Source: Hippasteria phrygiana (lineage: Eukaryota > Echinodermata > Asteroidea > Valvatida > Goniasteridae). Taken from it: 64,000 bases of DNA. The translations under genes were made by a program, and so were the position numbers. Below the pieces are notes generated by a model that was given only the letters and a program-made list of their open reading frames with translations, searched no databases and was not told the DNA's origin. Location: contig JAZGUH010000555.1 in the NCBI GenBank assembly GCA_037893225.1, positions 1-64,000 of the forward strand, given 5' to 3'. How positions within the stretch are numbered: the stretch's first letter is position 1; every line of letters begins with the position of its first letter. Of this stretch, positions 4,048 to 49,837 are shown piece after piece.

Positions 4048-4192
4048 TGTAAATACCGTCAATCGCAGACTCCCTATTGTCCCTCACATAAGTTTTGTAC
4101 ACGAATTTTAATCGTGGACGTTCGTTCAATCGTGGACCCTTTGTCTATGCCCTAACCCTTTTGTCTCTAGTCCACGATTGCCGGTATTTACA
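4048..4192. repeat. Short TIR repeat; empty-site paralog of the 12.6-kb insertion
   Basis: The ends are TGTAAATACCG and CGGTATTTACA in inverted orientation, next to AC-rich tracts. The interior has ATCGTGGACGTT then CGTTCAATCGTGGACCC. The same repeat is present at 37030-37142, is interrupted there, and resumes at 49718-49795. The uninterrupted junction therefore shows what that target looked like before insertion. Confidence 0.65.
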
Positions 4193-4557
4193 TACTCACA
4201 AAAGCACCTGCATACATGTATATATATAATTGATATACTCTCAGTGTAACTGATAGTAGAAATCCCATTCCCTCAAGATTTTATCTACATGCATTTGGTG
4301 TAATCAATTTCACCTATATTTAGGGAAAATTTTGAAAGCAATATTGAGCAGGGAAAGACCAGGAAGAACAGTTTTGTCATTTGGGAAGTCAGATCCTGTA
4401 AATGATAAACCTTAACACAATTTCATTTCTTTGGAGCCCCTCGTACAGGAAAAAATGGAAGCCCTTTTCACATCATTCTTAATGCCCTTTTTTGGAAACT
4501 GAGAAATAAGGGTGATTCGTAACAGTGTGCCATCAAGACTTTGTAACGGAGAGGCCA

Positions 4558-13157: not shown

Positions 13158-13724
13158 AAATATTAAATCATCCACAGAGAGTACGAGTTAACCTGGGTAC
13201 GAGTTAACTAGGGTACGAGTTGACAGGGCACATGTAGTCAGACACTAAAATAATCACACACCATAAAACAAATTTCTCCAAGCAAAGCCTCCTACAAGCA
13301 AAGCCTTTTATTGTTTTTGTTTTAATGTATACCTGTAGGTAGGCCAATACGTAGAACGCTTCCCACTCCCGCTGCCCCAGTGTGTGAGCAACGTTCACTC
13401 TCTCAAGATTGCAGCGTAAACCGCAGTTCACATTCCATTGACAAACTATACTAAGCAACAAGATAGCTATAGATAAGATACAAACAGCGTTGGCCAACCA
13501 CATTATTGATACTTTCCATTCACTGCATTTTTGTTTTCAAAACACCGCCAGACGGTTCGGGTCTTTCGAGTCGGAACAGAGTTTGAAATGGATCAATTTG
13601 TCTTTATTTATTTATTCATTTATTTATTAATTTATTTATTTTTGGTAGGAAGCCTTACATTGAATTTTTCACCGTAAGTTTCGGGTACCCGAACCGGAAA
13701 AATGGAACCGGATATTGACACCGG

Positions 13725-14188
13725 CATCCGGGCATCCGGGCATCCGGGCATCCGGGCATCCGGGCATCCGGGCATCCGGGCATCCGGGCATCCGGGCATC
13801 CGGGCATCCGGGCATCCGGGCATCCGGGCATCCGGGCATCCGGGCATCCGGGCATCCGGGCATCCGGGCATCCGGGCATCCGGGCATCCGGGCATCCGGG
13901 CATCCGGGCATCCGGGCATCCGGGCATCCGGGCATCCGGGCATCCGGGCATCCGGGCATCCGGGCATCCGGGCATCCGGGCATCCGGGCATCCGGGCATC
14001 CGGGCATCCGGGCATCCGGGCATCCGGGCATCCGGGCATCCGGGCATCCGGGCATCCGGGCATCCGGGCATCCGGGCATCCGGGCATCCGGGCATCCGGG
14101 CATCCGGGCATCCGGGCATCCGGGCATCCGGGCATCCGGGCATCCGGGCATCCGGGCATCCGGGCATCCGGGCATCCGGGCATCCGGG
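13725..14188. repeat. 58-copy perfect octamer minisatellite (CATCCGGG)
   Basis: The unit CATCCGGG repeats 58 times without a visible error, preceded by ACACCGG and followed by CAACCGGGTAACCGG. Since 8 is not divisible by 3, every frame on both strands is open and cycles through an 8-residue peptide (for example MPGCPDAR), which explains the long apparent open frames. It sits just inside the right end of the hAT-like element and resembles that end's ACCCGG words, so it probably arose from them. Confidence 0.97.
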
Positions 14189-15134
14189 CAACCGGGTAAC
14201 CGGCACAGGCCTAGTGTTGGGGGAACATTACTTTTTTATGTCATTTTTTTCCGAACGGGCATAATCTCTGGTAGATGTTTTCTTGAAGAAGGTACGATAG
14301 ACATATGGTCACTTGTGAAAAAATGCCAACTTTTATTCCTTCATTGCAACTCGTCGGTGATGTCAAAAACAACGCGGTCACAAGTGAAGTAAGAAAAGCC
14401 ATGTTTCCCATTCTTTGCTAGAAATAAAAAAAACCTCTAGCGGCTTCAGCCGGCTGCAATAGATCTCGTCTTGCGGCACAACAAACGCAACATCCACTAT
14501 CCGTCTTTTATAAATCCCTAAAACATACAACTGTCGGGCAACGGAACTCCCTTTGTCAGCAGTAAAACCGCAACACCGACCGTCTGTCTTTATAAAAAAC
14601 CCTCCAGCGGCGCGAAGATGCAGCTACCAGGTGATTTTTGTTAAAACCACAGAGCGGATGAACGAGCAGATTGGCGTCAGCGTGATAATTACTGGCACCT
14701 TTCTTCTGGGTTGGGATTAAGTAAGGGGTTTTCAAAACTTACTCGTCTTAAAGATGTTGAAAATAATTTACTTTTATTCAACCAGGCCGCCAAAAAATGC
14801 TCCTCGTAACCGTCTTCTCGTATTAATGCTTCTCGTATTAAGCCAATTTTCTCCTATAGAAATGTGCACGTTTTGGTCGGGACTGACGAAATATGCTCGT
14901 GATAACCGTGTTCTCGTCCCAACTGTGCTCGTAATAATAGTGCTCGACTGTAAGCCAAGCAATTGATTGGATAGACGAATGAACCAACAAACTATCAAAT
15001 GATTGAACAAGCATCCAAATGAACTGATAAGGAAAATACATGGAAATAAAGCAGAATAAACAAATGAACATAAGGCACTTCAAAAATATTACATCAATGA
15101 TATCCCAAAAATAACGGAAAAGTATTTTACCTAC

Positions 15135-15746
15135 CCATTAAATCCATATAATCTATGCTCGGACATTGTGACACCAATTTAAAGATGCCCTCATTGGTGA
15201 CGTTATTGCACCCTGCTAATTCAATGTGCAGCAGTTCCGGACAATGTCTGGCGATCATGCTCATTCCTCGGTCTGTAAGCTGGTCGCATCCATTCAGCAT
15301 CATCCTCTCCACGGTCAGACACACGTACGGTGTCTCCTGACAAAGTCTCCGTATCAGACACTTCAATGCATTGTCAATGTTTATCTGTCTCTTGGACAGC
15401 GTGACAGACGTCCATAAGCATGGCTGCCAGGCTAGCCGCTGCCATCGCTTACAAACCTGTGAACATCGGCACAAGCGCTTGACCGTCAGGTAGGAGAATA
15501 TGTTCGTGATGACCCTGTCGGTCAGTTTATCAAAGGGGGACTCGCTTGAGGTCCGGGCCAGTTTCTTCCTCATTTTGGTCATATTGGCCTCGGTAGCATT
15601 TTGCATTTCTATGAGGGGTGTCGGACTTGTGGCTGATGAAGAAGCCCCTGAACTCGTCGCTGTACTTTTGGATTCCTGTGAGGGTGACTTGGGCGTTGCC
15701 GGAGATCCATTCTCAAGCCTCAACTTCCTGACCACTTGCAAGGAAT
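15135..15746 (-). CDS. FBXL7: FBXL7 internal exon (F-box and first LRRs)
   Basis: The exon encodes 203 complete codons plus split codons at both ends. A Ser/Thr/Pro-rich low-complexity segment comes first. The F-box follows (about 15400-15534: FDKLTDRVITNIFSYL, then LCRCSQVCKRW and LAWQPCLWTSV). Then come INIDNALKCLIRRLCQ and the first LRRs (GCDQLTDRGMSMIARHCPEL). This order and wording match FBXL7. The F-box binds SKP1 in the SCF complex. The acceptor is TTTCATTCTAG just before 15746 (minus strand) and the donor GTAGGT follows 15135; both introns are phase 1. An ATG lies upstream at 15811-15813 in the same frame, but the good acceptor between makes it an unlikely start. The upstream N-terminal exon(s) were not found. 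Confidence 0.92.
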
Positions 15747-17177
15747 CTAGAATGAAAAGATGAGAATAACTCATCAGCTCTACATGCATACGTAAACACG
15801 AGCATGATGTCATTAGGTACAGAATGCTGCATTACTTCTCTCTCACCTCTTGACTCAAAGGTTTATTACCAATTGATATTAGTTTACAGTACAATTTATT
15901 TCATCATAACTGCCGAAAGAACTTAAGGCCTCAAACATTAAAACATTACAACCACTCTGGCAAAAAGCTCTTTTTGTTCATAAATCTCCAAGAAATGACA
16001 TACACACGATAGCAATGAATAAGCCAAAACCCAATGAGTACATGTAAAGCGCATTTGAGGTTTAGTCGATTTGCCAGAATGTCGGGTCTGCGATGAAATA
16101 TTCATGAAAAGAATAGCTGAAAAAGGTGGTTTTTTTCAGTTGAAGTTGATGGATAAAACTTGCCCAAATCAAGGTCAGTGTTATGCCATGATTATTTTTG
16201 CCTTGTTTATAAAAAAAGAGGCTAAGATAAGTACATGTACCAGATCAAATAACCCGGAGGAAAAGGTCAAAACATGCATGTATTGAGGTTGGGTAAAGGC
16301 ACACCTAAAAGTATCTGACAGCTGGTAAAATTACTGCAGTTAACTCGACCTACTTTTTTATACATCTACTGTGGGGCAAGAAATATGGGCTTAACACTAA
16401 TATTTGCTGTAGCATAGTAGCTCTCATAAACAAACCTCATGCACAAGCACTGAAGCCCCTTCAGGAATGACACCATTGACTTTGAACATCACAGACCTCT
16501 CCTCAAAAAATTAACAGAAAGCAGTTTTTGAAAACTACATGTAAATGCTTTATAGTGTAGGTGGTACATCTTGAACCATTCTTAATTAACCCTAACCCCC
16601 AGGGCGTGTGGAAATTCGTATTGATATTGATGAATTCAGCAGTGTTAGGGTTTTAAAATACAGATGGTGACAGGTTGGAAAAAGCAACCCCAGAGGATGT
16701 TGTCAAATTTCTCATAAACCGGGTATTCGAGAGGCAGAACGCAGGTCCACGCTCTGGGATGCCTCCATCTAGGAAAACAGATATCCAAAATACCTTGCAA
16801 TAGGAACGGCGGATTCTTACATGTATGTTGGCCAACTGACAGCGCAGTTTAATTTGATTGGCAGGATACGGCCATGGGGTACGGGCTCTAGCTTAGAGAA
16901 TCCATGCATATCGGATCAGGTCAAGAAATACATGGCACATGTTACATGGCACATGTTACACCCAAGCAAGCGGTCCCAATTTTCTCAGACAAGATGCGAT
17001 GGTTAGCCAGCGAGGTAAGAAGGCATACATGTATGGTGGCTTTGCTCCAATCAAAGGAAACAAGATTTATCAAGCACTATATTCGATACAGAGACCTCGC
17101 CTTCTTTCTCGGTCTGTGGTGGGCCAGAGATCGTACAGCTGACTTATACAGGCACATACAGTGTATGTTTCCTCCGT
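15747..17177. other. No gene seen; probable upstream FBXL7 intron
   Basis: It should be intronic if the FBXL7 5' exons lie further right. Small features only: a duplicated ATGGCACATGTTAC near 16931-16960 and scattered TACATGTA words. The open frames here lack coding character. Confidence 0.4.
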
Positions 17178-22090: not shown

Positions 22091-22671
22091 GTCCCATCTA
22101 AATTTTGTCATTTGTATAGCTTCCATGATTAATCACTCCATAGATGGTTCATTCAGTCATCAATTCACAAGCACACACATTACATGGCCCTCTTGAAACC
22201 CCTTGATGCTCCCAAGGGAGGCTACACTTATCAGATAATCTGTCAACACACCAAATTACAACCCATGTGGGATTTTAGTATCCAGTTGTTGATAGCTGGA
22301 TAGTTGCATGGCAACAAATTGAACTTGTCTGCCTAAATATTGACTAATGTACATGTGTAGGCTAATGCATTGGGGAAATGTGCTCAATGTACAAGTGGCT
22401 AACAAATATTTTGCTAACTGCACTAGGTAATACATGTACGTGTATATGCACACACATGACTTTTTTTTTTCAAATGAGGTAAACTTGCGACTGTATGTCC
22501 ATGTATGAGAAAACTAAAGTTATTAAAAATTGAAACATACACAATGCAGCTTCCAGGTTGCATCAGCAAATTGGGCGCGATCCTTGACTATACGACATTA
22601 TGGGTTTATGACTTCTGACTAGCGCCCCCGAAAAAAAATACTGACAATTTTGGAGACCGCCAACATAGGGC

Positions 22672-22790
22672 AAGATAGCTCAGTTGGTAGAGTGCCGGTA
22701 TAGTTTTCCCGGAGGTCACAGGTTCAAATCCCGCTCCTGCCAGTTTTCTTTGTTCACTTTGAAAATTTATTCAAATTTACCTAGTCAGTT
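22672..22790 (+). mobile_element. tRNA-derived SINE
   Basis: The head reads GATAGCTCAGTTGGTAGAGT (A box) and later AGGTTCAAATCCCGCTCC (B box), ending TGCCA, followed by TTTTCTTTGTTCACTTTGAA. The acceptor-like ends GGCAAGA / TCCTGCC nearly pair, but the T stem and anticodon arm are poor, so it is a SINE or tRNA pseudogene, not a tRNA gene. Confidence 0.7.
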
Positions 22791-31336: not shown

Positions 31337-31882
31337 CACACTGTGAACACACTGTGAACACACACAGTCGTACTTCCCCAATACGTCCGAGGACAATGCT
31401 TTGTGTTTCCTATTGTTCCTTTAATATAACCAACCCCCATAGACTAAGCACGTATCCTTACGTTCGAGGACCGATTTCAACAAAAGACTCTACGTTCGAG
31501 GACTGAAAGGTTTCTTTGTGTTTCCTTTCTTCTCTTGTCCTCGGAGATATATACAGTGCACGTACACTGTGAACACACTGTGAACACACTGTGAACACAC
31601 TGTGAACACACTGTGTACGTGCACTGTATATATCTCCGAGGACAAGAGAAGAAAGGAAACACAAAGAAACCTTTCAGTCCTCGAACGTAGAGTCTTTTGT
31701 TGAAATCGGTCCTCGAACGTAGAGTCTTTTGTTGAAATCGGTCCTCGAACGTAAGGATACGTGCTTAGTCTATGGGGTTTGGTTATATCAAGGGAACAAA
31801 AGGAAACACAAAGCTTTGTCCTCGGACGTATTAGGGAAGTACGACTGTGTGAACACACTGTGAACACACTGTGAACACACTG
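31337..31882. repeat. Long palindrome with ACTGTGAACAC clusters
   Basis: The left arm (31361-31565) is the near-exact reverse complement of the right arm (31614-31849): CACAGTCGTACTTCCC at the outer edge, GAGATATATACAGTGCACGT at the inner edge. The right arm has one extra 32-bp unit (GACCGATTTC through CTACGTTCGAG). The 11-bp unit ACTGTGAACAC lies in direct orientation in three places: about two copies before the left arm, four in the loop and three after the right arm. A transcript would fold into a hairpin of about 200 bp. No coding capacity is credible. Confidence 0.95.
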
Positions 31883-32515
31883 ACATTTTCACACTGTGAA
31901 TAAGCCAGTCCGGTATTCCAACTGCGCATGTGCACATCAGGATTTAAAAAATGTTTCTTTCAGGAGAAACATTTCATCGTGTACGTGCAAAAGCATAGCG
32001 GGTACCAGCAAATTTAAAGATATCATCATGCTCTGAAGTAACATTTTTCAAAAAACATTTAGACAGCAAAGTGTTTTCTGGAGTCTTGTGTGTCCCAAGC
32101 TTTTGTTCGAAAAAAAGTTTCCATCGTCTTTTAGATTGCACGAAAAATTGCACAGAATGCAGATTCGGTAACCATGTCCCCCATAGCCTTGTGTTCATTT
32201 ATCTGCCACGTTTTCCCCAAGAGAAATATTCGTCGAATCTTGTTGTGCACATGTATGCGCAGTTGGAATACCGAACTGGATTATTCAGAGTGATTTTGTA
32301 AGTGTCGGTCCACAGCAAGAACACACTAGGGGAGATGGGGGTTAGTTGGAACGATTTTCACAAGAACGTCTATATAACAAATTTTATTTAAGAAACAATA
32401 ACTATACCAGTTAATGCATGTGTGTTACAAATGTAGCCTATACAATTCTTAGACTTGTTGATGGTTCCTTAACTAATCCACCTTGAACATGACTACATGT
32501 ACATGTATGTCAGGT

Positions 32516-36203: not shown

Positions 36204-37142
36204 CATAGGTTACTTCCATTAAGTCTGGTTTGAAGTTTATTCATTTCCGCAAATGAGTTAATTACAGGCAACCAGATTTTTTTTGTAGGAAATGTGTACA
36301 GTGTGGGAACACTGTGTGATCTGTGTTCATGCTTTGAAGACACTATTATCAGGCTGTGGCCACACTATGGGGGACACTATGCTCATGCTATAGAAACACT
36401 ATGATAACAGTGTGGTCACACTATGGGGGGACACCGTGTACACACTGTGACCACACTGGAGTCCAAATAACAGTATGAACAAAGTGTGTTCAGTGATCCC
36501 ACACTATGGTGACAGGGGGGAATTATTTTTAAGGGTGTTTCCAAAGCCTTAACTTTTAGCTACAAATTCCTTTATGGAGAATGTTGTCAACTGGCTTTGA
36601 AATTACAGCACAATGAACATGTACATTGTACATGTTCATGTTCATGTACATGTACATGTACATGTACATGTAGGATCTCAGCAGATGCAAGATTCGAGCA
36701 TTTAATAATACATAGGTAAATGTACGTTACAGTTTGCACAAGCAGGAAATGTCATGTAATATTATTTATTGTAAATAATCGGCCTGTACATGACAGCAGA
36801 GCTCCATCCTAGGAACACCACTGTCAATTCCTGCCTTTGACAAGACTGGTTAACAACATTTGGTTCATCCCATTATTATTACATGTATATCACACAGACC
36901 TGTGGTAAAAAAAGCCCTGACAACAATCAACATTACCCTGGCAGTGGGCAAACAGACGAATGAAGATCTAAAAGCTGCCTCCCATACACGGTTATCAACT
37001 ACCACACACACACACACACACACACACAGTCATGTAAACGGGTGCAATCGTGGACCTCCCATTGTTCCTCTTTTGTTTATACTCTAACTTTTTCGGAAGG
37101 CCTCCCATTTGTTTTGTACACGATTTTTAATCGTGGACGTTA
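36204..37142. other. No gene seen; ACACTATGG array, ACATGT run, CA repeat
   Basis: At 36294-36516 the words ACACTATGG, ACACTGTG and GTGTTCATG recur in both orientations. At 36610-36673 there is an ACATGT/TACATG run. A (CA)13 tract at 37003-37028 borders the split target repeat of the 12.6-kb element (37030-37142). Confidence 0.55.
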
Positions 37143-38260
37143 CACTGTGAGGCCCGAATACGTGAAAACCTTTTGTTGGAACGAAAAACGTGAAAAGTAA
37201 ACAATGGGCACTTTTTTCACGTAATAAAAAACGTGATAAGTCCACTTTTCACGTCTGTCAAAGTATCACGTATTTTTCGGGCCAGCTGGTTGCTAAGGCA
37301 TATCTTTCACGTATTTAAATACGTGAAAACTTTGCTCGCGCACGTGCCCATTGTTGGCGGATTAGCGGAGGTGCTATAAACAATCTTTTGTTCTGCAATG
37401 GCTGGTATGTTGAACAGCACAACACGACCGTTTACCGGACCATCGCGAGGTAAGTGTGACCTAAAATGGGATTAGAAAGGCTTAGCTTTAAACTTATCAA
37501 GGGCGTTTTCTTTCTTTCTTTTTTAAATAAAAGACATGTTGAGTTTGGGTAATTACAAAGTGGGTGCTAATTGGTGTAAATCGATATAACGGAGATTCGT
37601 TAACCCACTGCCAAATGCATGTAACAAACGGGGTTGACAACTTGAAAGACTGACGCCCGATGCCGGGGACAACCAAATCGGGCGTTGGGCTACAGTTAGT
37701 GGCGGACAATTGTCCGACGGGCAACCTACCTTTTCAAAAAACGGGCTTATATGAAACGTATAATAAATTAATAATGATTATCTTTCTTATTTCGTCAAAC
37801 GTATGCGAAAATCAAAAGTCTCTGAAAGTTGTTTAAATGAATACGAAAAGTAAACAAAAGTCAGTTGAACTCCGAAGATGCACGATAGCCTACTTACCAC
37901 GCCGATATCGTACCGCTAGCGCTGTATACACGATTGGGCCTGGGACTGTTTGACGGCAACGCGGCCCAGCATGGCGTATAAAGAATTTGTCAAGAAGTAC
38001 AACGATTCAATTTACACATTGCGCGGGCCATGCACTGCGGAAGCAGTGTATTTGTTGAAGTGTATTATGCCGCAGGCCACCGCGCCACTAAATTCTCACT
38101 ACGTTCTGTAGACTCTGTTCCGTAGACTTATGTTCTAGTCCGTAGTGTATTTTTGTGTGTGGACTGGTGCTTGAATTCATGAAGAACATTGTTTTATTAG
38201 AACGAAATATGCTAAAATAAAGACTGATTGCAAAGTCTATTGGAAAACAGTTGTAATTAC
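37143..38260. repeat. Left long inverted arm of the 12.6-kb element
   Basis: It matches the right arm in reverse complement: GTTGGAACGAAAAACGTGAA, CCATTGTTGGCGGATTAGCG, GATGCCGGGGACAACCAAAT, GTCAAGAAGT then AACGAT, and GACTGGTGCTTGAA. The match fades near AAAGTCTATTGG and the A/T-rich bases after it. The first 200 bases hold about nine ACGTGAAA / TTTCACGT words. Confidence 0.85.
37398..37449 (+). other. Candidate first coding exon in left arm
   Basis: An ATG at 37398 opens 17 codons (MAGMLNSTTRPFTGPSR) followed directly by a strong donor, GTAAGT, at 37450. The right arm keeps the donor (CGCGAG then GTAAGTG) and most bases but has lost the ATG. It may be the remains of a promoter and 5' exon of the element's own gene, or chance. 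Confidence 0.25.
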
Positions 38261-38269
38261 GTATTGACT

Positions 38270-38850
38270 GCAATAAAAAGACCCGCTTTATAACGCTTGT
38301 ATCAATTTCACCAGCGTCGCGTACGCGTACTGTCCAAAATCGCTTATGTACTGGAGGTAAAAAATGAAAAAAAGAAGATACGTCTGGTATATCAACTGCC
38401 TCGAGTTCAAACACCTATTTTCGTGAAACGCGTTATTCACTCCAAAGCCCTTAATAAACCACTCGTGAAACGTCAAAACCAAAAGAGGAAAACAATATCC
38501 AGATACACTATTTTTCGCATACTTTTGGTTCATGTCATCATTGACTGCTGTTTTGGTTCAAAATATATCACTGTTCAATCATTTCCAGGTCCGATAATAG
38601 AAATGTTGGCCTTTTTTGTCAACATTTTGTGATTTATTTCAGTCTTTGGATGCCACATGCCAATCATACTATACATGTACTACAGGTGTACTGTGACGTT
38701 TAATGATGCTAGAATAAGGGTAGTCTGAGAAGTCAAAAAGATATGTGGAATGCGTATGCGTACAGGGGGAGGGGGTTGGAGCCACTGCGTAGGCCCCCTG
38801 TGCCATGCGTACAGGGGGGGGGGGGATTTATTTGTTCTTTTCAAAACCAC
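38270..38850. repeat. Fragment of the Harbinger-like family seen at 2516-3439
   Basis: Long stretches match 2815-3400 in the same orientation: TGACTGCTGTTTTGGTTCAA, ATATATCACTGTTCAATCAT, TTTAATGATGCTAGAATA and GAATGCGTATGCGTAC, then G-runs. The terminal GTACGTACTTTATGG is missing, so the copy is truncated. Confidence 0.8.
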
Positions 38851-39669
38851 CCCTTAACGAAATGTTTGAACCCAGCTCTGCAGCGCTGGCACTTTGGAAC
38901 AATACGCGTTACGCTCAACGCGCGCACATCTGCACACACATACCGCGCCATTTGCTTGGTTGCTACGGGTACAGTACTTTTGGCCGTGCACAGGAAGATA
39001 GCAAAAATAGAAAATGCCATGTGACTCGCTCTCGGCCGATCAAGACACAGAATCTGTGGATGAGGTGATAAAATAACCGTTATTACGACTTGTAAGGATT
39101 TTTGAGCACCTTGCTCTTTCTTAAAAAAACGTTTAATAAAGGACGTAGTATTTCATTTACGACCTTTGGAAATCAACAACTGCGACACCTACAGTTAAGT
39201 TCCACAGCGCTAGTTAAGTTACACAGCGCTGAGCGCTATATACCCAGCGCTAGCTGAGCGCTATATACCCGTACATATATATATACACGCACTAGTTCGG
39301 CAATCGGGTACCAGCGTGTGTAACAGTGTTGACACGCTGGTACCCTCTTTTTGTATTGCACTGGCCATTTCTCACCATGGGGAATTCCCTTCCCGCACGT
39401 GCTGTTAGCTTGCATGCAATCGCTAGCTCTCGTCTTGTTTTTTGTTTATTTATTAACAATTCAGGTGCATACTTTGGACCCAGATGGGTAAAGCAATTTC
39501 CTCAAATCACCGGATATGGATTTAGCAAACATTTCCAGAGTTTTGGTGCGTTGCGTTTAAATCGATATCGATAAAAACTAAGCTGAATGATGCCGCAATC
39601 GAATGAGTACGACTACGACTGCGAGTACGACCCTTCCTTGAGGCTCCAAGGTACAAACAACAACCGTCT

Positions 39670-39707
39670 GACCATGGAGGAAGGAACACTAACCTTCCTC
39701 CATGGTC
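39670..39707. repeat. Perfect hairpin GACCATGGAGGAAGG
   Basis: 15-bp arms (GACCATGGAGGAAGG and CCTTCCTCCATGGTC) with an 8-base loop. CCATGGAGGA also occurs near 48363, inside the right arm. Confidence 0.85.
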
Positions 39708-40313
39708 TGACTGAGATTTCATACAAGGTAAATGTTCATCCTTTAATTAATTAGGTACATGGAGATATTTCTTGGTAACATTTCGGGCGGTGGAGGGGGG
39801 AGGGAAAAGCAGGGCTGGACATCATAAATTGAGGCCTAGGGGGCCCTTATGACTGCACACAAATTATGCACATATGGATGTATACATGAACGGTTAGGGC
39901 TACATGCGCAATTAATTACTGTTCATTAAATTACACAAAAGAGGTCTTTTTATTTTAACTTTCTATGGATTTATTACAAAATAATTGCTTCTTAAAAAAC
40001 AAGGAAGAATCATATACTGTACACACATGTACATGTACATGTATTTGCTATTCGACATTAATCCTTTTCTTTTATTGGGAGTGTAGATTCTGGTGACGTG
40101 ACAACTGATTGACAGGAGGTAAAACTGATGTCGGAGCTAACTGTTTTTAATGTACATTAACTACATACGCTGCTGCCAACGATCATGATTGTGGCCACAG
40201 ATTAGGCCAACATGAAAATATAAATAAAACTAATTTAAAACGTCATAGCTTACTAATGCACTCTGTATGTTCTTTAAAATCATTACTGAATTTAAAATGA
40301 TTAAAAGTACTGT

Positions 40314-41457
40314 CGGAGCTCGACAAATCCCATGGCCCGGACGCCCGGGACAACCACGCCAGGCCTCCGCGGGCAACCGGAGTTTCCCGTGCTAGAGCCC
40401 GCCGGACCACCAACTGTATTGCACATGTTTTTCAGAGAATCAAACTTCATAATCATGGACCAGAACACAGCTACACAGATCAGCAGGTACAAGCAAAAAT
40501 AACATTAAACATTCACCCACAAATAAAGTTTAATATCATCGCCATTCAGTGACTTCGTATTCAGAGAAAAATAAGTGAAATACATGTACTCGATTGCACA
40601 GAGCTAGCTGCCATCTTTATGCCACTGGTACCGCGCGCTGTCCATGTACTGGCCGTGCGACAGTTGAACGGAACCAACCAGCAACCTCAAAACAGATTGC
40701 GCGTGCATGATGTCAGTCACTTTTCATAGACTTGTTCCCGATCCTTCCAATTATCTTTTGGCTTAAAAAATAACGAAAAATCGGCGCTAAATAATAATAA
40801 TAGCAGAACATTTCGCGCTTACTATCAGGGATGTATTTCACAGGTTAGTAATTTATTTTGGCATGAACAAACTACATGTACTCACGCTTACTTTGCGTTA
40901 GTTAGAAAATGATGGAGGGACTGGGAACTCGTCTATGATTGATCACGATGTGCTGAATTAGTTCCTGCGCGCCGCATGCTATACAAAATACAAATGCGTA
41001 ATAGAGGCCGAAACCAGTCTGCACACATATACGGGTATTATAAACATTCAGCGGGCATGTAATTATTCGCGTGCTTTGAGGAGCTGTACCTAGGGTGAAA
41101 AGTTTTGATATTTGCTTGGCCGGGCGCTGGATTCGGATATTGTGTGGAACAAGCAAACGCTATAATTTAGTAAATACGCTGTATTCTGCTTGGCTATGCC
41201 AAAACAGAAGTGAAAATGAAACGTTTTCTGATTTCATCTAAATATGGTGATGCTGGGTCTGACAAGAATCTAAAAAAGAACTTCAGTTTTATTTCCACAG
41301 TCCATAAATAATACTATTTTATAAAGTTTGCGTTTGTTATTTTTAGGTTTGGGTTTGGCCGCACAGGACTACCAATTTCAAACATTGGGCTACCATTTTT
41401 CTCAGTGTGGTATAGTCCGGTGGACTGCCAGTTGAATAAAAAATTTGTCGAGCTCTG
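40314..41457. mobile_element. TIR element with C(G/A)GAGCTCGACAAAT ends
   Basis: The left end CGGAGCTCGACAAAT and right end (reverse complement CAGAGCTCGACAAAT) are flanked by ACTGT at 40309-40313 and 41458-41462, a 5-bp direct duplication. GC-rich CCCGGGCGTCC-like words lie next to the left end. There is no transposase frame. The superfamily is uncertain. It is nested in the 12.6-kb element. Confidence 0.65.
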
Positions 41458-42011
41458 ACTGTGCACTTATCACGTGTGTTTTCTATTTTTGTTATATTCC
41501 TGCTGTTTTGTTATGGTCAAACGACTATCATTGAGCCTTTCTCCTACGATGGAGGAATAATCATCGACGTCGTTTTTGCTAGTAAAAAGTAAAAACGTAA
41601 GTACTGGCATCCCTCCTCCTTGCAGCGGCCTAATGCTTTCTTCTTAAACAAGTGTGTGTGTGTTTACACGGGGGATGTGTCAGCGGGTTAGCGAGAGAGG
41701 ACTTAAGACAACGGGAGATTAGGGATAACAATGACACCGAAGACTTGGGCCGGGTCCTCGGGAGAATTTCGTGTACAAACCTTATGGGAGCTGTTAAAGT
41801 TAAAGTACAAACAAAGGGAACAAAAGAAGGGTAAAATAAAAGTAGCCAGTTCGCTGCATCGGTTTTACGTGACATGTTCTATTGCCCATATGCGAATCTG
41901 ACCAACTTATGATGAGCCTGTATTGGCTAATCATTGTTCCAACTTGGGCATCAGTAATTGGGTATCGGCATTTTTGGCCTACAAGACTGAAAAAAATCTT
42001 AAAAAGGCAGT

Positions 42012-43390
42012 GGATTTTACATACATATTCATGGCTCAAATGGAGATCTTTTAAACTTAATTCGGCTTGTTGAAATTCCATATTATTACAAAACTTGAGG
42101 ATATAATTTCCCAGAAAAAGGCACCTCAAAATATTTAACATGAAAAGCGTGCATTTCAGAAGAAAACTTAGCATTCATCAAAAATGTCAAAGCTCAGAAA
42201 AAGATTTAAAACTATATCTCAAGATTTTCAAGAAAAGATGGGAGGAAAAACTGTGAGAAAAACCAATGAGAAATAAATCATGAAAAATACAAAACTCAAT
42301 TTATATATTAATAAATATGTTGTTCTCAGAGTCCAGAGAATCATTGACCTTTAAACTACACTGAAATGTTTGGATACCAAAACTGAATGCCTGCCTATAT
42401 TGAGCACACCCCTTCCCCCCACAAATAATAATAATAATAATAACAATAATAATAATGTTTCAAAAATTAACCGCAGGTTCACACCCGGCTTTATTAATAC
42501 TTATCCCCACTCAAAAAAATCTTTCAGGCAAAACTGCCAAACTTTAACTTGTTTCTGCCACAATCAAAGTACAAGGATGATCTAAAAACCTTCAATAAAA
42601 TAAAAGGGAAACAATGGCAATTTACAGGTAAAAAACTCTTATGAAACTCAGTGCAGTTCATGTGCAAACCTTACTAAGAGGGAAAAACTCCAAGTTTCCC
42701 ACCCGTGTAAGAGGATTAAGCCATCGTAAAGATACTGCACGGTCCTATGGGCCTCATTAAGTATGCAAATCCTCTGGCCGGTGTACATTCAGTAAAGTAT
42801 TGATTTTAAGGACTATAGTGGATTAAGAACAAAGGACTCCTGCATATTCTAAGCATTCCTCCATGGTTAAGTTAACTTGTGTGGCTATTGGGGTAGGCCT
42901 ACATGTATTCGAAACCCTGTTCTGGTTTGGAATGAACCCGCGAAGAGCGTTTCGAATGAAGACAACGAACACGCGACTGATGAACGGTGCTCGTGAACAA
43001 CATGAGAACGGCAAGAACAAAGATGGCGGTCTTAAGGCATTACAGAGTTTGCGTTAATTTTTGGGAGCATTCATTCAGTCCAGCAGAAACAGTATAAGAA
43101 AATAACATTACACGTAGTGATCATAAATAGTGGGACTGCCAATTTTTATTGCTGTACGTTCCAGGATTTCAATTTGTTCGTATAAGATAATTGTCTTTCT
43201 TTTCATTTGGAGTATTAATACGGTGGCTGCCACCTTGAATTTTCGTCCAGAGGCCGGGCGCTCTACAGTTGGCTTTCGTAATCGGCAACAGGAGAACACT
43301 GTTCGCGGCCGAGTTACCGGAGAACGGGGTTTCGAAAACACCCAAATGTTTCTATATGTACAATGTGAAGATACAAGAATTAAAGACATC
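42012..43390. repeat. Tandem-duplicated unit A
   Basis: It aligns with 43991-45360 over nearly its full length: TTCCATATTATTACAAAAC, CATTGACCTTTAAACTACAC, AATAAT tracts, CCATCGTAAAGATACTGCAC and TCATAAATAGTGGGACTGCC. Unit A ends GACATC just before the TTAA-flanked MITE. Short open frames shared by the units differ by frameshifts, so they are not credible genes. Confidence 0.85.
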
Positions 43391-43394
43391 TTAA

Positions 43395-43986
43395 AGGGAC
43401 ACATTGCTTTGGATTTTGCGATTTGGGCTATATAAAACTAAACATGGATATGGTTGGGAAGCTTTTTTAAAAGTAGAATATAAACATTCATATAACTATC
43501 CCTTCAAATTGCGTGGTTTTTGTTTAATTTCGTGACAAATAACGGTCCGCCATTTTGTAGAACCAAATTTTTGACTCCACAAAATGGCGGACTGGGTTCA
43601 CCAGTCGTATTTCCAGTCGCTGCTGGTTGAAGTACGTTCTGTTAATCCATTTTGATGTACTGTGTGGCACGGCGCGCGCACTGGCGATATGTGTCGCGAG
43701 GTAGAGAAAGGTACCTGGCGATCATCTTATAGGTTTACAAGGCCACTGGCTGCGGCGCCAGCCTAAAGACTCTCACAGCGTATTTTGCGCATTATTTAGA
43801 CGGTGGAAATAAGTCTATGATTTGCGGGTCAGATGTCAGGAGTCAGAGGCCAATTTATTGTTTTGTAATCACTACTCACTAATTACAACACATTATACGT
43901 GTTTTTTTGCGTGAACAACTCTTATAAAAGATAAGGAACATTTCAAAACATCAAAATTTCATGACATTTGAAGGCAATGTGTCCCT
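43395..43986. mobile_element. TTAA MITE between tandem units
   Basis: TTAA flanks both ends (43391-43394 and 43987-43990). The ends are AGGGACACATTGCTTTGG and, in inverse, AGGGACACATTGCCTT. The centre has an inverted CCGCCATTTTGTAGA / CCACAAAATGGCGG pair. The next unit junction (45350-45370) reads GACATCTTAACAAGGAAGTG with no insertion, which is the intact target. A TTAA target fits Kolobok-like or piggyBac-like MITEs. Confidence 0.9.
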
Positions 43987-43990
43987 TTAA

Positions 43991-44428
43991 CAAGGAAGTG
44001 GATTTACTGACACATACTTATACATGGAAATCAAATGGAGTTGTTAAGCTTACTTCGGCATGTTAAAATTCCATATTATTACAAAACATGAGGATATAAT
44101 TTCCCAGAAAAAGGAACCTCAAAATATTTAACATGAAAAGCGTGATTTTCAGAAAACACTTAGCATTCATCAACAATTTCAAAGCTCAGGAAAAGACTTA
44201 AAACTATATCCCAAGATTTTCAAGAAAAGAAGTTGGGAGGAAAAACTGTGAGAAAAACAAATGAGAAATAAATCATGAAAAATACAAAACTAAATTTATA
44301 CATTAATAAATATGTTGTTCTCAGAGTCCAGAGAATCATTGACCTTTAAACTACACTTAAATTTTTGGATACCAAAATGCCTGCCTATATTGAGCACACC
44401 CCTTCCCCCCACAAATAATAATAATAAC

Positions 44429-44459
<31 letters not shown>

Positions 44460-45360
44460 TTTCAAAAATTTACCGCAGGTTCACACCCGGCTTTATTAAT
44501 ACTTATCCCCACTCAAAAAAATCTTTCAGGCAAAACTGCCAAACTGAAACTTGTTTCTGCCAGAATCAAAGTACAAGGATGATCTAAAAACCTTCAATAA
44601 AATAAAAGGGAAACAATGGCAATTTAAAGGTAAAAAAACAAACTCTTATGAAACTCAGTGCAGTTCATGTGCAAACAGAGGGGAAAACTCCCAGTTTCCC
44701 ACCCCGCTTAAGCCATCGTAAAGATACTGCACGGTCCTATGGGCCTCATTAAGTATGCAAATCCTCTGGCTGGTGTACATTCAGTAAAGTATTGATTTTA
44801 AGGGCTATAGTGGATTAAGAACAAAGGACTCCTGCATATTCTAAGCATCCCTCCATGGTCTAAGTTAACTTGTGTGGCTATTGGGGTACATGTATTCGAA
44901 ACCCTGTTCTGGTTTTGAATGAACCCGCGAAGAGCGTTTTGAATGAAGACAACGAACACGCCACTGATGAACGGTGCTCGTGAACAACATGACAACGGCA
45001 AGAACAAAGATGGCGTTTGCGTTAATTTTTGGGAGCATTCATTCAGTCCAGCAGGAACAGTATAAGAAAATAACATTACACGTAGTGATCATAAATAGTG
45101 GGACTGCCAATTTTTATTGCTGTACGTTCCAGGATTTCAATTTGTTCGTATAAGATAATTGTCTTTCTTTTCATTTGGAGTATTATAATACGGTGGCTGC
45201 CATCTTGAATTTTCGTCCAGAGGCCGGGCGCTCTACAGTTGGCTTTCGTAATCGGCAACCAGAGAACACTGTTCGCGGCCGAGTTACCAGAGAACGGGGT
45301 TTCGAAAACACCTAAATGTTTATATATGTACAATGTGAAGATACAAGAAAAGACATCTTA
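43991..45360. repeat. Tandem-duplicated unit B
   Basis: A close copy of unit A with small indels, for example a longer AAT tract (44414-44458) and loss of a short segment near 45010. It ends AAAGACATCTTAA, directly joined to unit C. Confidence 0.85.
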
Positions 45361-46210
45361 ACAAGGAAGTGGATTTACTGACACATATACTTATACCATC
45401 CTCCATGCTTATACATGGAAATCAAATGGAGGTGTTAAGCTTAATTCGGCATGTTAAAATTCCATATTATTACAAAAAAGTGGAGGGAAAATTACTCAAC
45501 TTTAATAATTTCCCAGAAAAAAAGGCACCTCGAAATGTTTAACATGAACAAAAGCTTCAGAAGAAAACTTAGCATTCATCAAAAATTTCAAAGTTCAGGA
45601 AAAGGCTTAAAACTATATATCTCAAGAAAGATGAGGAAAATCTCACAAATCAAAGAGGTAATAAAACAGGAAAAATTAACTAGATTTATACATTAATATG
45701 TTGTCCTCAGAGTCCAGAGAATCATTGACCTTTGAACTACACTAATATTTTTTTATACCAAAATGTCTGCCTATAGCACACGCCTGTAATAAGGTTTCGA
45801 AAATTAACCGCAGTATAGCACCATGCAGGTTCAACCTTTATTACTTAATCCCCACTCAAAACAAATCTTTGAGGCAAAACTGCCAAACTCAAACTTGTTT
45901 CTGCCACGATCAAAGGACAAGAATGATCTAATCCTGCAAATATAAAACAAGAGAAACGGACAATGTTAATTTAAAAGCAGTTATTATAAAACAAAACTCT
46001 TGTGAAACTCCAGTTCAATGTACAAAACCACTGAAAGCCAGGGCCTACTCCAAGTTTCCAACTGGGTGTATAAGGGATTAAGCCATCGTAAACTAAGATA
46101 CTGCACAGTCCTACGGGCCTCATTAAATATGCAAATCCTCTGGCCCGCTGTACACTGTATTGATCCTAGGGGGCGAGAAGATTGAGAACAAAGGACCAAG
46201 GCATGGTTTA
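45361..46210. repeat. Tandem-duplicated unit C, diverged and shortened
   Basis: It begins CAAGGAAGTGGATTTACTGA like unit B and keeps TTCGGCATGTTAAAATTCC, GTCCAGAGAATCATTGACC, TTAACCGCAG and AAGCCATCGTAAA, but with more differences and deletions than A versus B. Either an older copy or one under less gene conversion. Confidence 0.75.
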
Positions 46211-46438
46211 CTTGGGTGTTATTCCTCCATGCTTTCAGAGCATTGATACACGCATGGTGCGTACGCGAAGTCGTTGTTATCCCGCTTGCCAGACTAAGCC
46301 TGAAAACAGACCTATGCTAGCTGTGCAAAATAAACATACGACACCAGACTATCAGTCTGGTTTCCGCCATGCAAGATATTAGGCGTTTTACAAATTTTCT
46401 GACCTTTGAAAAATGTCCTTGTAGAATGATTGGTCTTG

Positions 46439-47210
46439 TAGTGCATACCCTTATGTCACAATATCTAGTTGAGTGGGTTTTTCGGATAGATTCTTGCCAA
46501 ACAGTTTTTTTGTACTAAGTACATCATAAAATTATCAAAAATTGTTGTTGGCATTTTTTTGGCGGCCATCTTGGTATAATGGCGGCCATCTTGAAATCTG
46601 ATGTCAAAAAGCTTTATTTTGCTCAATAATTTGCTGTTCTTTTCCATATTTCTTTGTGAAAATAATTTTGTGTGTGCTCTGACAACTCTTTAATATATTA
46701 AATCAACAACTCATAACCGAAGAAAGTTTGAAAATATATCACATTGAACAACCAGCCTATATTAAATCAAGATCAAGTGCTGAAAAATATAAAAAAGCAC
46801 GTGGCAGCAATTTTTGAGCTTGGTAGCCATCTTGAAGCATATTTTAATCAATGTAATGTGCATAATATTTGACTGAGATCATTGATCATAACAAAGTAAT
46901 GAGGTAAAGAAATATAAAATATTTAGACAAATCTGATTTTTGGATGTTAAAACTACTAACATTTGCCGCCATTTTGAATTTGGCAGCCATCTTGGTAATG
47001 ATATAGCAGCCATTTTGAATTCAGGAACCATCTTGGGTTATGAGTTGTTGATTTAATATATTAAAGAGTTGTCAGAGCTTTTTGACATCAGATTTCAAGA
47101 TGGCCGCCAAAAAAATGCCAACAACAACTTTTTTGATAATCTAAGTAGAAAAAACTGTTTGGCAAGAATCTATCCGAAAAGCCCACTCAATTACACAAGG
47201 GTATGCACTA
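46439..47210. mobile_element. TIR element with TAGTGCATACCCTT ends, rich in GCCATCTTG
   Basis: The ends TAGTGCATACCCTTATGT and (reverse complement) TAGTGCATACCCTTGTGT are followed by a long inverted match: GGATAGATTCTTGCCAAACA, TTGTTGTTGGCATTTTTTTG and GGCGGCCATCTTG. TTG flanks both sides (46436-46438, 47211-47213). GCCATCTTG or GCCATTTTG occurs about eight times, in both orientations. No gene is encoded. Confidence 0.8.
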
Positions 47211-47214
47211 TTGT

Positions 47215-47335
47215 TTGGGGTTGGGTATTTTATAGGAAATATCGTTCCACTGACCTGTTTCAAGTTTTGCGTTGTTAGATGGCGAAACAAAAAATGAGAG
47301 AAAAACAGCGTTCGTTTTACACCGTCGGCCGGATG
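47215..47335. repeat. Short dispersed repeat, copy 1
   Basis: It shares GGGTATTTTATAGGAAATAT-type sequence, CACTGACCTGTT, AAGTTTTGCGTT and GATGGCGAAA with 58677-58800 in the same orientation. Confidence 0.75.
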
Positions 47336-47676
47336 ATAGCCTTTATTCAAGACGCGCGTGTCTACTTCGACGCGTGACGCGCCCCGGATCATGCCAGCCA
47401 TAGATATATTATAATTATAAAGACTAGCTGGGCAGCACGTACAGACGCGCATTCTGATCTGCCATTTGCAGCGCCATTTTTTAGCGCGTGGGGCGATACG
47501 TTTTTCAACATTAAAAATGGTTTCAAACTGCGTTGCTGCAGTTTGTCACAGCAATAAAAGACGACTGGGAAGCCCCATATCGTGCTGGGTATACTAAATA
47601 AGGCTACATTTGTTACAGAGGGCAATTTTCCCCAACAATAACTTTCCACTTTAGAGAGGTTTAGCAGCACGTATTA

Positions 47677-47808
47677 TAAAGCCCGGTTCATACTTCATGC
47701 GAATACGTATGCGAAGCGAATTCGTTATGGTAACGGTGTGCGTCACAATGATACTTCAATTGTTGACGTCATGAAATTCGCTTCGCATGAAGTATGAACC
47801 GGGCTTTA
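47677..47808. mobile_element. 132-bp MITE with TAAAGCCCGGTTCATACTTC ends
   Basis: Perfect TIRs of about 27 bp (TAAAGCCCGGTTCATACTTC, then ATGCGAA) enclose about 78 bases. A TA or TTA-like duplication is possible, but the ends overlap it. No coding capacity. Confidence 0.85.
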
Positions 47809-48064
47809 CGCGAACGTCAACGCGAGCGCGCCCGACATTTTTTGGAGCAGGCACAGTGGGCACTATAATTTCCAGCGAGGGCACACTGGGGCCACCACTT
47901 TCTACAAGGGAACAAAAATCATTTTGAAGTTATTGGACTTATAGTTACCAAACTAAAGGTATGTCGTAGATATGGCGCAGGGTTTTGAGTTTCTTGTGGG
48001 AAATTTTGGGGTGAAAAAAAGAGAACTCTGAAAAATATATATTTTTATTTAGTTATTTTTTTGT

Positions 48065-48100
48065 GGGGGGGGGGGGGGGGGGGGGGTATCCCCCACTATT

Positions 48101-48171
<71 letters not shown>
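48065..48171. repeat. G22 run followed by C70 run
   Basis: 22 G (48065-48086), then TATCCCCCACTATTA, then 70 consecutive C (48102-48171). Poly-G facing poly-C can pair as a hairpin or form G-quadruplex/i-motif structures. The exact length is likely to be uncertain in assembly. The proline-rich open frame across it is an artefact. Confidence 0.85.
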
Positions 48172-48173
<2 letters not shown>

Positions 48174-48234
48174 CTGGCTACGCCTATGCTTAATGCGATT
48201 CCCAGTTGCGGATAAAATCTCCATCCAAATTTGT

Positions 48235-49717
48235 GCTCGCCGAATACGTCTGTTTGCCAATAGACTTTACATTCAGTCTATAATTTACCACATTTCGTTC
48301 TACATACGTTCTTCAAGCACCAGTCCACACAAAAATTCACTACGGACTATAGAACAGTCTACCATGGAGGAATGAGTCTACGGAACATGCAGTCTACGGA
48401 ACGTAATGAGAATTTAGTTGCGGGGTGGCCCGATTATGTAGACTATACAGGAATTCGCCGACGCCATTTTTACAGTGGTGCCGCGCTCGCGTGCAGGCTG
48501 CCCGCGTTCTTTAATTTGAGTCGCGTGCGCATTTTGGCAAGTTGTAAACACCCTGTTGGTCGAAGCTGCGTCGAGCGCGTGTTTTGGTCGCCGGATTCGT
48601 CTATAGACTAATCCGGCGACCAAAATTAGAAGCATTAACTGCGGTGGCGAGGCGCTCGCGTACGTGTTAGACGCGCGCGCTCGACGCAGCTTCGACCAAC
48701 AGGGTGTTTACAACTTGCCAAAATGCGCACGCGACTCAAATTAAAGAACGCGGGCAGCCTGCACGCGGGCGCGGCACCACCGTAAAAATGGCTTCTCATT
48801 TTGTTCGGCTAATTCCTGTGTAACAAAATCCCCGCGCAATGTGTGAATTAAATCGTTGCACTTCTTGACAAATTCTTTACACGTCATGTGCTGACGAGCC
48901 GCGTTGCCGTCAAACAGTCAAAGGCCTACGAGATCGGCGCGGTAAGTATATCGTGCATCCTCGGGAGTTGGAGTTCAGTTGACTTTTGTTTACTTTTCGC
49001 ATTCATTAACAAAAATCTGAGACGTTTGGTTTTTGCATTCTTTTGCAAAATCAGAAAGATAATCATTATAAATTTATTATACGTTTCATATAAGCCCGAT
49101 TTAGAAAAAAAATGGGTTGTCCGTCGGACAAGAAACGAGCCCGACGCCCGATTTGGTTGTCCCCGGCATCGGGCGATAGTATTTCAAGTTGTCAACCCCC
49201 GTGTTTTACATGCATTTGGCAGTGGGTTAACGAATCTCCGGTATATCGATTTAGGCCTACACCAATTAGCACCCACTTTGTAATTACCCAAACTCAACAT
49301 GTCTTTTTCTAAAAAAAGAAAAGAAAAGAAAATCCCTTGATAAGTTTAAAGCTAAGCCTTTCTAATCTCATTTTAGGTCACACTTACCTCGCGATGGTTC
49401 GGGAAAACGGTCGTTAACCTTCAATGGAAACGTGTGTAGTGCTGTCCTACATACCAGTCGTTGCAGAACAAAAGATTGTTTATAGCACCTCCGCTAATCC
49501 GCCAACAATGGGCACGTGCGCGAGCGAAGTTTTCACGTATTTCAGTACGTGAAAGATATGCCTTAGCAACCGGCCGACCCGAAAAATACGTGATACTTTG
49601 ACGAACGTGAAAAGTGAACTTATCACGTTTTTTATTACGTGAAAAAGGTTGCCCTTTGTTCACTTTTCACGTTTTTCGTTCCAACAAAAGGTTTTCACGT
49701 ATTCGGGCCTCACAGTG
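48235..49717. repeat. Right long inverted arm of the 12.6-kb element
   Basis: The reverse complement of 37143-38260, lengthened by a 371-bp foldback insertion at 48448-48818. The outer 200 bases again carry ACGTGAAA / TTTCACGT words. The phrase encoding IWQWVNESPxYRF is kept in both arms (49205-49250 here, 37570-37620 on the left). Confidence 0.85.
48448..48818. mobile_element. Foldback element in right arm
   Basis: The ends CAGGAATTCGCCGA and (reverse complement) CAGGAATTAGCCGA begin an inverted match that runs almost to the centre: GGCAGCCTGCACGCG, ACAGGGTGTTTACAACTTGC and GCTCGACGCAGCTTCGACC. A second palindrome, GTCGCCGGATT / AATCCGGCGAC, sits at 48587-48621. The left arm has no such insertion at the matching place (GTGGCCTGCGGCA then CGCGCAATGTG), so it arrived after the arms formed. 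Confidence 0.8.
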
Positions 49718-49794
49718 TTAGGTCAAACGTGGACCCCTTTGTCTACGCTCGAATTCTTTTGTCCTAGGTCCACGATTGCCGGCATATACAAACT

Positions 49795-49825
<31 letters not shown>

Positions 49826-49837
49826 CTTTTTTTGCAG

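Follow-up and report, generated by a model that had tools for sequence, protein, structure and literature searches.

The 64,000-nucleotide stretch of Hippasteria phrygiana DNA analysed here (the window) contains two long arms in inverse orientation around a body of several kilobases, which raises the question of whether arms and body form one transposable element and, if they do, what kind of enzyme would move it. The interval 37143-49717 is a single discrete mobile element with its own boundaries (Table 1). Its termini, CACTGTGAGGCCCG...CGGGCCTCACAGTG, are read directly in the sequence with TTA flanking each side, and these ends, the TTA duplications and the inverted arms of more than 1 kb are all as the sequence-only reading had described them. 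Arm homology covers 37143 to ~38250 on the left and ~48250 to 49717 on the right, in two blastn blocks (83% and 74%).

Table 1. Coordinates of the element, its parts and its target sequences in the window.
Feature	Position	Strand	Remarks
Complete element, CACTA-like, predicted non-autonomous	37143..49717	.	12,575 bp; ends and duplication read directly
TTA, left target-site duplication	37140..37142	.
TTA, right target-site duplication	49718..49720	.
Left terminus, outermost 56 nt	37143..37198	+	identical to right terminus
Right terminus, outermost 56 nt	49662..49717	-
Long inverted repeat, left arm	37143..38250	+
Long inverted repeat, right arm	48250..49717	-	contains extra palindrome 48431-48830
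Hairpin (inverted duplication), ~400 bp, inside right arm	48431..48830	.
Left subterminal region, 8 ACGTGA/TCACGT boxes, both orientations	37143..37328	+
Right subterminal region, same 8 boxes	49532..49717	-
Left-arm TATAAA, ATG (37398), splice-donor-like GTAAGT (37450)	37375..37456	+	read from sequence
Dispersed repeat adjoining left arm on inner side	38296..38775	+	second copy 2875-3333, 80.7%
Internal direct repeats	41999..46196	+	units 41999-43394; 43987-45361 (91%); 45404-46196 (70-72%)
Target repeat split by insertion, left part	36990..37142	+
Target repeat split by insertion, right part	49718..49830	+
Diverged, uninterrupted relative of target repeat	4048..4192	+

The uninterrupted relative of the target repeat had been proposed as a record of the pre-insertion site. 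It matches the element flanks at 85.1% over 121 bp across the junction and is equal in length; however, it has GTTCGTTC where an empty site is expected to read GTTAGGTC, and thus supports the length of the insertion but not the TTA. The best empty site lies on a different contig (L031:4611-4801), where 191 bp match at 95.3% and GGACGTTAGGTCAAACGTGG contains one TTA.

A recently active family

In the 944 Mb host assembly, the 25-nt terminus occurs 78 times with up to one mismatch, compared with no occurrence of a reversed-pattern control, so the ends exceed chance. Copies with both ends recur: 29 pairs of termini face each other genome-wide, with spans of 3.0-27 kb and a median of 12,514 bp (24 of the 29 within 10-15.5 kb), the pairs being called from their termini and the interiors read, whole or in part, in some copies only. 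Identity to the window copy over shared parts is at least 98.0% in 10 of 13 copies compared, and coverage of it at least 9.3 kb in eight of the 13; the copy at one other locus (C136a), flanked by an ATA duplication, shows 11 differences in 12,534 bases. Two short copies, C529 (3.0 kb) and C74 (5.8 kb), have clean duplications, yet are too short for most of the body. The 56-nt terminus is unchanged in 20 of 22 family arms compared, the exceptions being both arms of C600. Internally the copies vary more: the direct repeats differ in unit number, and the right-arm hairpin is complete in the window copy and C136a, has its halves about 50 bp apart in C285 and is reduced to about one half in six other copies.

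The 3-bp target duplication attributed to the element holds across the family, with matching triplets in 25 of 28 copies (24 of 27 scored by script, and C202 read directly). The three copies lacking one (C19, C309 and C348, the latter two with a base change in the terminal CACTG) count against a CACTA/EnSpm reading. TTA itself is no family rule, as the duplications are varied and AT-rich: only three of the 24 scripted triplets are TTA, the rest being ATA, TAA, CTA, TAT, TTG and eight more. These roughly thirty closely similar copies make up a genuine family that has been active recently and is, broadly, of a known type. We found no description of the family in the literature searched, although the print record may still hold one, and the exact element end has no match in IMG/VR.

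The arms have a longer history than the insertions. With C600 left out, left arms differ from one another by 0-1.6% and right arms by 0-1.9%, whereas a left arm and a right arm are 8.7-10.9% apart. That last range describes the divergence within a copy in eight of the nine copies read at both ends; the ninth, C600, has a rearranged right arm and stands at 24.1%. Since the left-right divergence is nearly constant across copies, it is old and gives no date for insertion, and we rejected dating on this basis. How far two long arms have diverged may be a property fixed across a family, and should never be used as a clock for insertions.

The view of the arms as the termini of one element is borne out in the full copies read, where they recur as paired ends enclosing the same interior, but it needs qualification for their inner parts. 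A sister group, whose terminus contains GAAGACG and which has 10 unpaired ends in the genome terminus census, shares the outermost 234-460 nt only: C240, C827 and C28 have this outer segment in common, C28 with short interior pieces in addition, which implies that the inner arm is not needed for defining ends. C888 carries several pieces of the window element's interior at 69-93%, in changed order and orientation, so parts of the interior exist outside this arrangement. Elsewhere short pieces of the terminus occur, with 26 nt followed by Gypsy frames (C709), 111 nt followed by unrelated DNA (C310) or 30 nt adjoining a putative exon that we take to be ABCC-like (C272).

A missing transposase

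Transposases of the CACTA/EnSpm-Mirage-Chapaev-Transib (CMCT) clade are DDE enzymes that carry the motifs C(2)C and H(3-4)H. Among the 101 open reading frames of at least 50 aa in the window copy, Pfam identified no transposase domain, and its only match was a weak one to C6_DPF (E 0.005). The family therefore looks non-autonomous, in agreement with the sequence-only reading, and because no enzyme of its own was found in the element, we propose that the enzyme is probably borrowed from another element. The sister group has none to offer in the stretches of C240, C827, C28, C709 and C888 that were scanned: these gave 102 frames of at least 68 aa, after a low-complexity stretch of C240 had been excluded, and the 73 compared with Pfam included no transposase. 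Matches were to RVT_1, SH3_Tf2-1 and rve_3, all consistent with the Gypsy frames in C709, and to ADK_lid (E 0.001).

The host genome does have 22 matches to PF02992 (Transposase_21, the EnSpm type), 11 of which lie in open frames 483-1,071 aa long. No contig carries both one of these matches and one of the 78 termini, a comparison limited to ends with at most one mismatch over 25 nt that a partner with more diverged ends would escape, and no family-type ends were seen at the five of these 22 loci that were read. An autonomous EnSpm relative, which the sequence-only reading had suggested looking for, thus did not appear, which counts against the CACTA/EnSpm reading. Three larger copies were considered as autonomous members and rejected. 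C363 (27 kb) includes a stretch resembling a Polinton, with a capsid-like frame in it; C159 has a frame that looks like a Penelope-like reverse transcriptase; and C294 has one resembling the N terminus of polymerase B of the Polinton type, all names that we presume from sequence features. When ten frames from C363 and C159 were compared with Pfam, one matched DUF7547 weakly, under the cut-off of that family, and the other nine matched nothing; two C294 frames had no match.

Classification and its alternatives

Transib/RAG transposition duplicates 5 bp, in contrast to the 3 bp found here, with which the single-TTA empty site agrees. CMCT elements mostly have 5'-CA...TG-3' termini and duplications of 2-5 bp (PMC12730594), and the family fits that description, since its ends are CACTG...CAGTG and 25 of 28 copies are flanked by a matching 3-bp duplication. 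Within the clade, EnSpm/CACTA duplications are described as 3 bp of variable sequence (PMC4158355, PMC8195511), as they are here, and its subterminal repeats as direct and inverted units of 10-20 bp (PMC8195511). The element has eight boxes per arm, though of 6 nt; eight fall in the first 400 nt, compared with a mean of 0.25 and a maximum of 3 in 2000 simulated sequences. On the other side, full-length EnSpm/CACTA elements end in CACTA...TAGTG (PMC4158355), whereas the fifth base here is G, and no Transposase_21 (tnp2) gene was found between the same termini at up to one mismatch. We therefore keep the earlier CACTA/EnSpm assignment at the level of the clade, where the structure fits, and with a probability of about 0.75 read the family as non-autonomous DNA transposons that move by cut-and-paste in the manner of CACTA/EnSpm, whose structure places them in the CACTA/EnSpm-Mirage-Chapaev clade, with EnSpm as the best guess.

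Such an element would be moved by a transposase made elsewhere. This enzyme would bind the ACGTGA boxes, which lie within ~185 nt of the tip of either arm, cut at the CACTG ends and insert the element at AT-rich sites whose strands are cut 3 bp apart. The remaining ~0.9 kb on the inner side of each arm probably has no part in this; it would be baggage left by an old inverted duplication of one end, in which the beginning of an ancestral gene may survive as a relic, and the 12.5-kb body would be cargo whose length shifts through internal repeats, deletions and nested insertions. Judging from its sequence, 37398-37449 in the left arm is a possible relic first exon; at the corresponding site of the right arm, ACG replaces the ATG.

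A non-autonomous Chapaev or Chapaev3 element, rather than an EnSpm one, is unlikely though credible. A Chapaev transposase would cut the CAC...GTG ends, the hallmarks of 3-4 bp duplications and 5'-CAC...GTG-3' termini (PMC4079192) are both present, and the separation of PF02992 genes from family termini by contig speaks for this reading as well. Chapaev3, however, duplicates TWA between A and T (PMC4079192), and only six of the 24 scripted duplications are TTA or TAA.

It is quite unlikely that the element is autonomous, with a many-exon transposase too divergent or interrupted for Pfam. The conserved 12.5-kb body and the TATA, ATG and splice donor of the left arm would suit such a gene, as would the interval 37319-37450 over the ATG, whose nonsynonymous/synonymous ratio of 0.21 is the third lowest of 167 (median 0.74). 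Yet each of the six lowest ratios (0.20-0.23) is based on 8-14 changes, and they are scattered over both strands, the lone Pfam match is the weak one to C6_DPF, and C529 and C74 have clean duplications despite their shortness.

We consider it very unlikely that the inverted arms of more than 1 kb and the conserved 12.5-kb non-coding body are retained as aids to spread, with a mover of neither known EnSpm nor Chapaev type; such an aid might, for example, target silencing by the host through a hairpin or a non-coding RNA.

PIF/Harbinger elements prefer TWA targets. A non-autonomous member of that group would account for the TTA of the window copy, and its canonical duplication is 3 bp (PMC12730594), but 18 of the 24 scripted duplications are neither TTA nor TAA and ends of the form CACTG...CAGTG belong to the CA...TG clade (PMC12730594), making this highly improbable. 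A chance spacing of 12 kb between two independent dispersed repeats in inverse orientation, or an inverted duplication of a segment, might explain C240, C827 and C28, with little beyond the outer arm in common, and the rearranged pieces in C888. Both can practically be dismissed: they are refuted by the pairing of ends together with the matching duplications (25 of 28), and the empty site, the 29 facing pairs and the common interior of the full copies read oppose them as well.

Comparison with known systems

In the CACTA/EnSpm-like family, a very large DNA transposon that is apparently non-coding has recently spread in an animal genome, and the case is a clean one; an FBXL7-like gene likewise points to an animal host. 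DNA transposition is described as losing efficacy above ~6 kb of cargo (PMC6431247). The precise empty site, the duplications and the near-identical copies make it testable how a transposase-less 12.5-kb element keeps moving.

Among animal elements, the TRC group (e.g. SmTRC1) likewise moves by cut-and-paste and has terminal inverted repeats, and its enzyme is a Transposase_21 (PMC1636069), a domain that also occurs in the host genome. The CCC ends and 2-bp duplications of the TRC elements described in PMC1636069 differ from the CACTG and 3 bp seen here, which counts against the CACTA reading. Chapaev and Chapaev3 resemble the family in their CAC...GTG termini and 3-bp duplications, although the duplications here are not confined to the TWA of Chapaev3 (PMC4079192). 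The plant CACTA/EnSpm non-autonomous elements LsC1 of lettuce and the Tpn1 family of morning glory, as described in PMC8195511, are like the family in having AT-rich 3-bp duplications and subterminal repeats in both orientations without a transposase; members reach tens of kb, and related ones have the same ends around unrelated middles. In contrast to these, our family ends in CACTG rather than CACTA, has arms of over 1 kb where the LsC1 terminal inverted repeat is 28 nt (PMC8195511), and carries one common 12.5-kb body in an animal host.

Ends, arms and insertion site of the element

The window element begins with CACTGTGAGGCCCGAATACG, preceded by GGACG and TTA, and closes with CGGGCCTCACAGTG, followed by TTA GGTC. 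Aligned against each other, its two inverted arms are the same over the outermost 56 nt, with mismatches and gaps building up further in. The right-arm hairpin is whole in the window copy and in the copy C136a, occurs as two halves with ~50 bp between them in C285, and is represented by approximately one half in C591, C35, C22, C74, C29 and C218.

Features of the window, the element and related loci (L numbers, fetched stretches of the host genome)
Feature	Position	Remarks
Window element	37143-49717	12,575 bp; ends and duplications read in sequence
Left arm	37143 to ~38250	arm-versus-arm alignment
Right arm	49717 back to ~48250	arm-versus-arm alignment
Additional 400-bp stretch, right arm	48431-48830	forms hairpin by itself
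Left-arm signals	TATAAA 37375; ATG 37398; GTAAGT 37450	read in sequence
22-G and 70-C runs, inside element	48065-48086; 48102-48171	run lengths may be an assembly matter
Target repeat copies	L031:4611-4801; L023:6267-6700; window 36990-37142 + 49718-49830; 4048-4192	
Head-to-head GAAGACG fusions	L054, L060, L062 (C888 twice, C490)	three near-identical places
FBXL7-like gene	exons 4688-5458, 15130-15831	minus strand, window
Tandem array	13723-14196	GGCATCCG x 59, highly regular, 99% matches
tRNA gene	22669-22742	Rfam and ARAGORN; four-base anticodon agtt per ARAGORN
Inverted structure of 11-bp repeats	31337-31892	CACTGTGAACA; unit's first 8 bases are the element's

Taking out the element and one TTA predicts the empty site GGACGTTAGGTCAAACGTGG. 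The repeat copy in L031 is 95.3% identical to the joined flanks over 191 bp, and its junction reads exactly GGACGTTAGGTCAAACGTGG. The sequence-only reading had proposed the other repeat in the window as the empty-site paralog. Its stretch 4082-4200 is 85.1% identical to the joined flanks across 121 bp; the length over the junction agrees, and the letters at the duplication differ. This repeat therefore supports insertion, yet the best empty site is that in L031. The element landed in a dispersed repeat of ~200 bp that contains CAATCGTGGAC motifs and that, in the window and in L031, is flanked by microsatellites of CA or CCA. A relative of this repeat also harbours the element's C74 copy.

Among the database matches listed for the FBXL7-like gene, the best two come from fishes, at 51 and 53% identity; at least 21 relatives reach E 1e-60 or better, and the matches listed include birds and arthropods. 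On these grounds we regard the host as an animal.

A dispersed family with old arms

Across the host assembly, which comprises 1,285 contigs (944 Mb) and contains the window as C555:1-64000, the left 301 bp gave at least 40 matches, a lower bound since the best 40 of 124 candidates were scored. The 25-nt terminus with at most one mismatch occurs at 78 places, 66 of them exact, against 0 for the reversed control. Ends facing each other within 40 kb form 29 pairs of 2,998-27,114 bp (median 12,514; 24/29 at 10-15.5 kb), and these provide the other copies sharing both ends that the sequence-only reading had suggested seeking. Ten of the 20 unpaired ends are of the GAAGACG type, a sister group named for a motif in its end sequence.

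Flanks were examined for 27 of the 29 pairs (C941 and C965 left out) and for C600. A script found matching duplications of 3 bp in 24/27, or 25/28 with C202, which was read by eye from the script output; C19, C309 and C348 have none, and the terminal CACTG has an altered base in C309 and C348. The TTA duplications described earlier hold for the window copy, but family-wide only three scripted duplications are TTA and the rest are other triplets (ATA 4, TAA 3, TTG 2, CTA 2, TAT 2, eight further triplets once each). In 33 left flanks, A or T predominates in the three bases preceding the element end.

Thirteen copies, those whose interiors were compared, are 95.6-99.9% identical to the window element over shared parts with gaps excluded (at least 98.0% in 10/13); eight cover at least 9.3 kb of it, and five cover less of it, through deletion, nested insertion or retrieval of a part only. 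C136a differs from the window copy at 11 of 12,534 aligned bases, although the two are separate loci with ATA and TTA duplications, respectively; interior divergence is 0.3-2.4% for the remaining pairs among the nine long copies. Copies have different numbers of the 1.4-2 kb direct repeats in the element centre, and we infer that these repeats, together with nested insertions and deletions, explain much of the length variation.

With C600 set aside, left arms differ from one another by at most 1.6% and right arms by at most 1.9%, whereas left and right arms differ by 8.7-10.9%; maxima including C600 are 4.1, 19.4 and 25.4%, respectively. This disparity between same-side and opposite arms indicates that arm divergence predates the spread of the family. 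The eight copies read at both ends give no sign of arm homogenisation since then.

Several nested or fused arrangements were also seen. The C363 copy is interrupted by an insertion, which we take to be Polinton-like, with capsid-like and other open frames (L013 from ~6345). At C272, 30 nt of terminus directly adjoin a presumably ABCC-transporter-like exon (L095, near 2100), as if a truncated insertion lay within it. GAAGACG-type termini are found fused head to head in twos, with a few bases missing at the joint, and at C709 (L053) 26 nt of such a terminus run directly into Gypsy integrase and reverse-transcriptase frames.

Extent of the terminus and a possible relic exon

Each arm carries eight ACGTGA/TCACGT boxes, in both orientations, within its outer 185 nt, where 16 of the element's 19 boxes lie (expectation, 0.25 per 400 nt). 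In the sister group, three stretches match the element's outer end over 234 (C827), ~385 (C28) and 460 nt (C240). Inward of this common end, C240 has only 50 nt and C827 only 186 nt in common with the window element, and C28 a few short pieces; C888 holds several pieces of the interior at 69-93%, in changed order and orientation. From this, a functional terminus of ~240 nt is probable, and the remaining arm would be inherited baggage.

The TATAAA, ATG and GTAAGT of the left arm are possibly the relic of an ancestral first exon copied into both arms; the right arm has ACG at the position matching the ATG. The open stretch over this ATG shows 7 synonymous versus 5 nonsynonymous changes; its nonsynonymous/synonymous ratio is third lowest among 167, but it rests on few changes and does not allow for transition bias.

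Transposase source and placement among known superfamilies

As the sequence-only reading had supposed, the window element appears to be non-autonomous: Pfam identified no transposase among its 101 ORFs of at least 50 aa, the sole match being a weak one to C6_DPF (E 0.005). C529 (3.0 kb; known from its ends and flanks) and C74 (5.8 kb) are too short for most of the body and have clean duplications. Transposase_21 (PF02992, EnSpm-type) has 22 matches in the genome, 21 above the curated cut-off; 11 sit in open frames 483-1,071 aa long, and a single gene may account for several of the matches as its exons. No contig that carries one of the 22 matches also bears any of the 78 termini. All five loci read ~3 kb to each side encode Transposase_21 proteins, and these stretches show neither similarity to the window element nor an inverted CACT[A/G] pair accompanied by a 3-bp duplication. 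The search for an autonomous EnSpm relative tied none to these ends, and with such proteins present in the genome a suitable enzyme source is plausible; its ends, if it exists, are more than one base in 25 away from those of the window element.

As described in the papers cited, the CACTA/EnSpm-Mirage-Chapaev-Transib clade has mostly CA...TG ends and duplications of 2-5 bp (PMC12730594), Chapaev3 a TWA target duplication (PMC4079192), and animal TRC elements CCC ends with a 2-bp duplication (PMC1636069). We file the window element in this clade by structure, with an EnSpm-like placement as our best guess. The earlier label CACTA-like stands for clade structure and 3-bp duplications, but the ends are CACTG and we do not claim strict CACTA membership. 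Plant non-autonomous CACTA elements are described as large, with AT-rich 3-bp duplications and with subterminal repeats that occur in both orientations (PMC8195511). Although the window element differs from that description in its CACTG rather than CACTA ends, its very long arms and its missing enzyme, these plant elements fit best among the systems compared.
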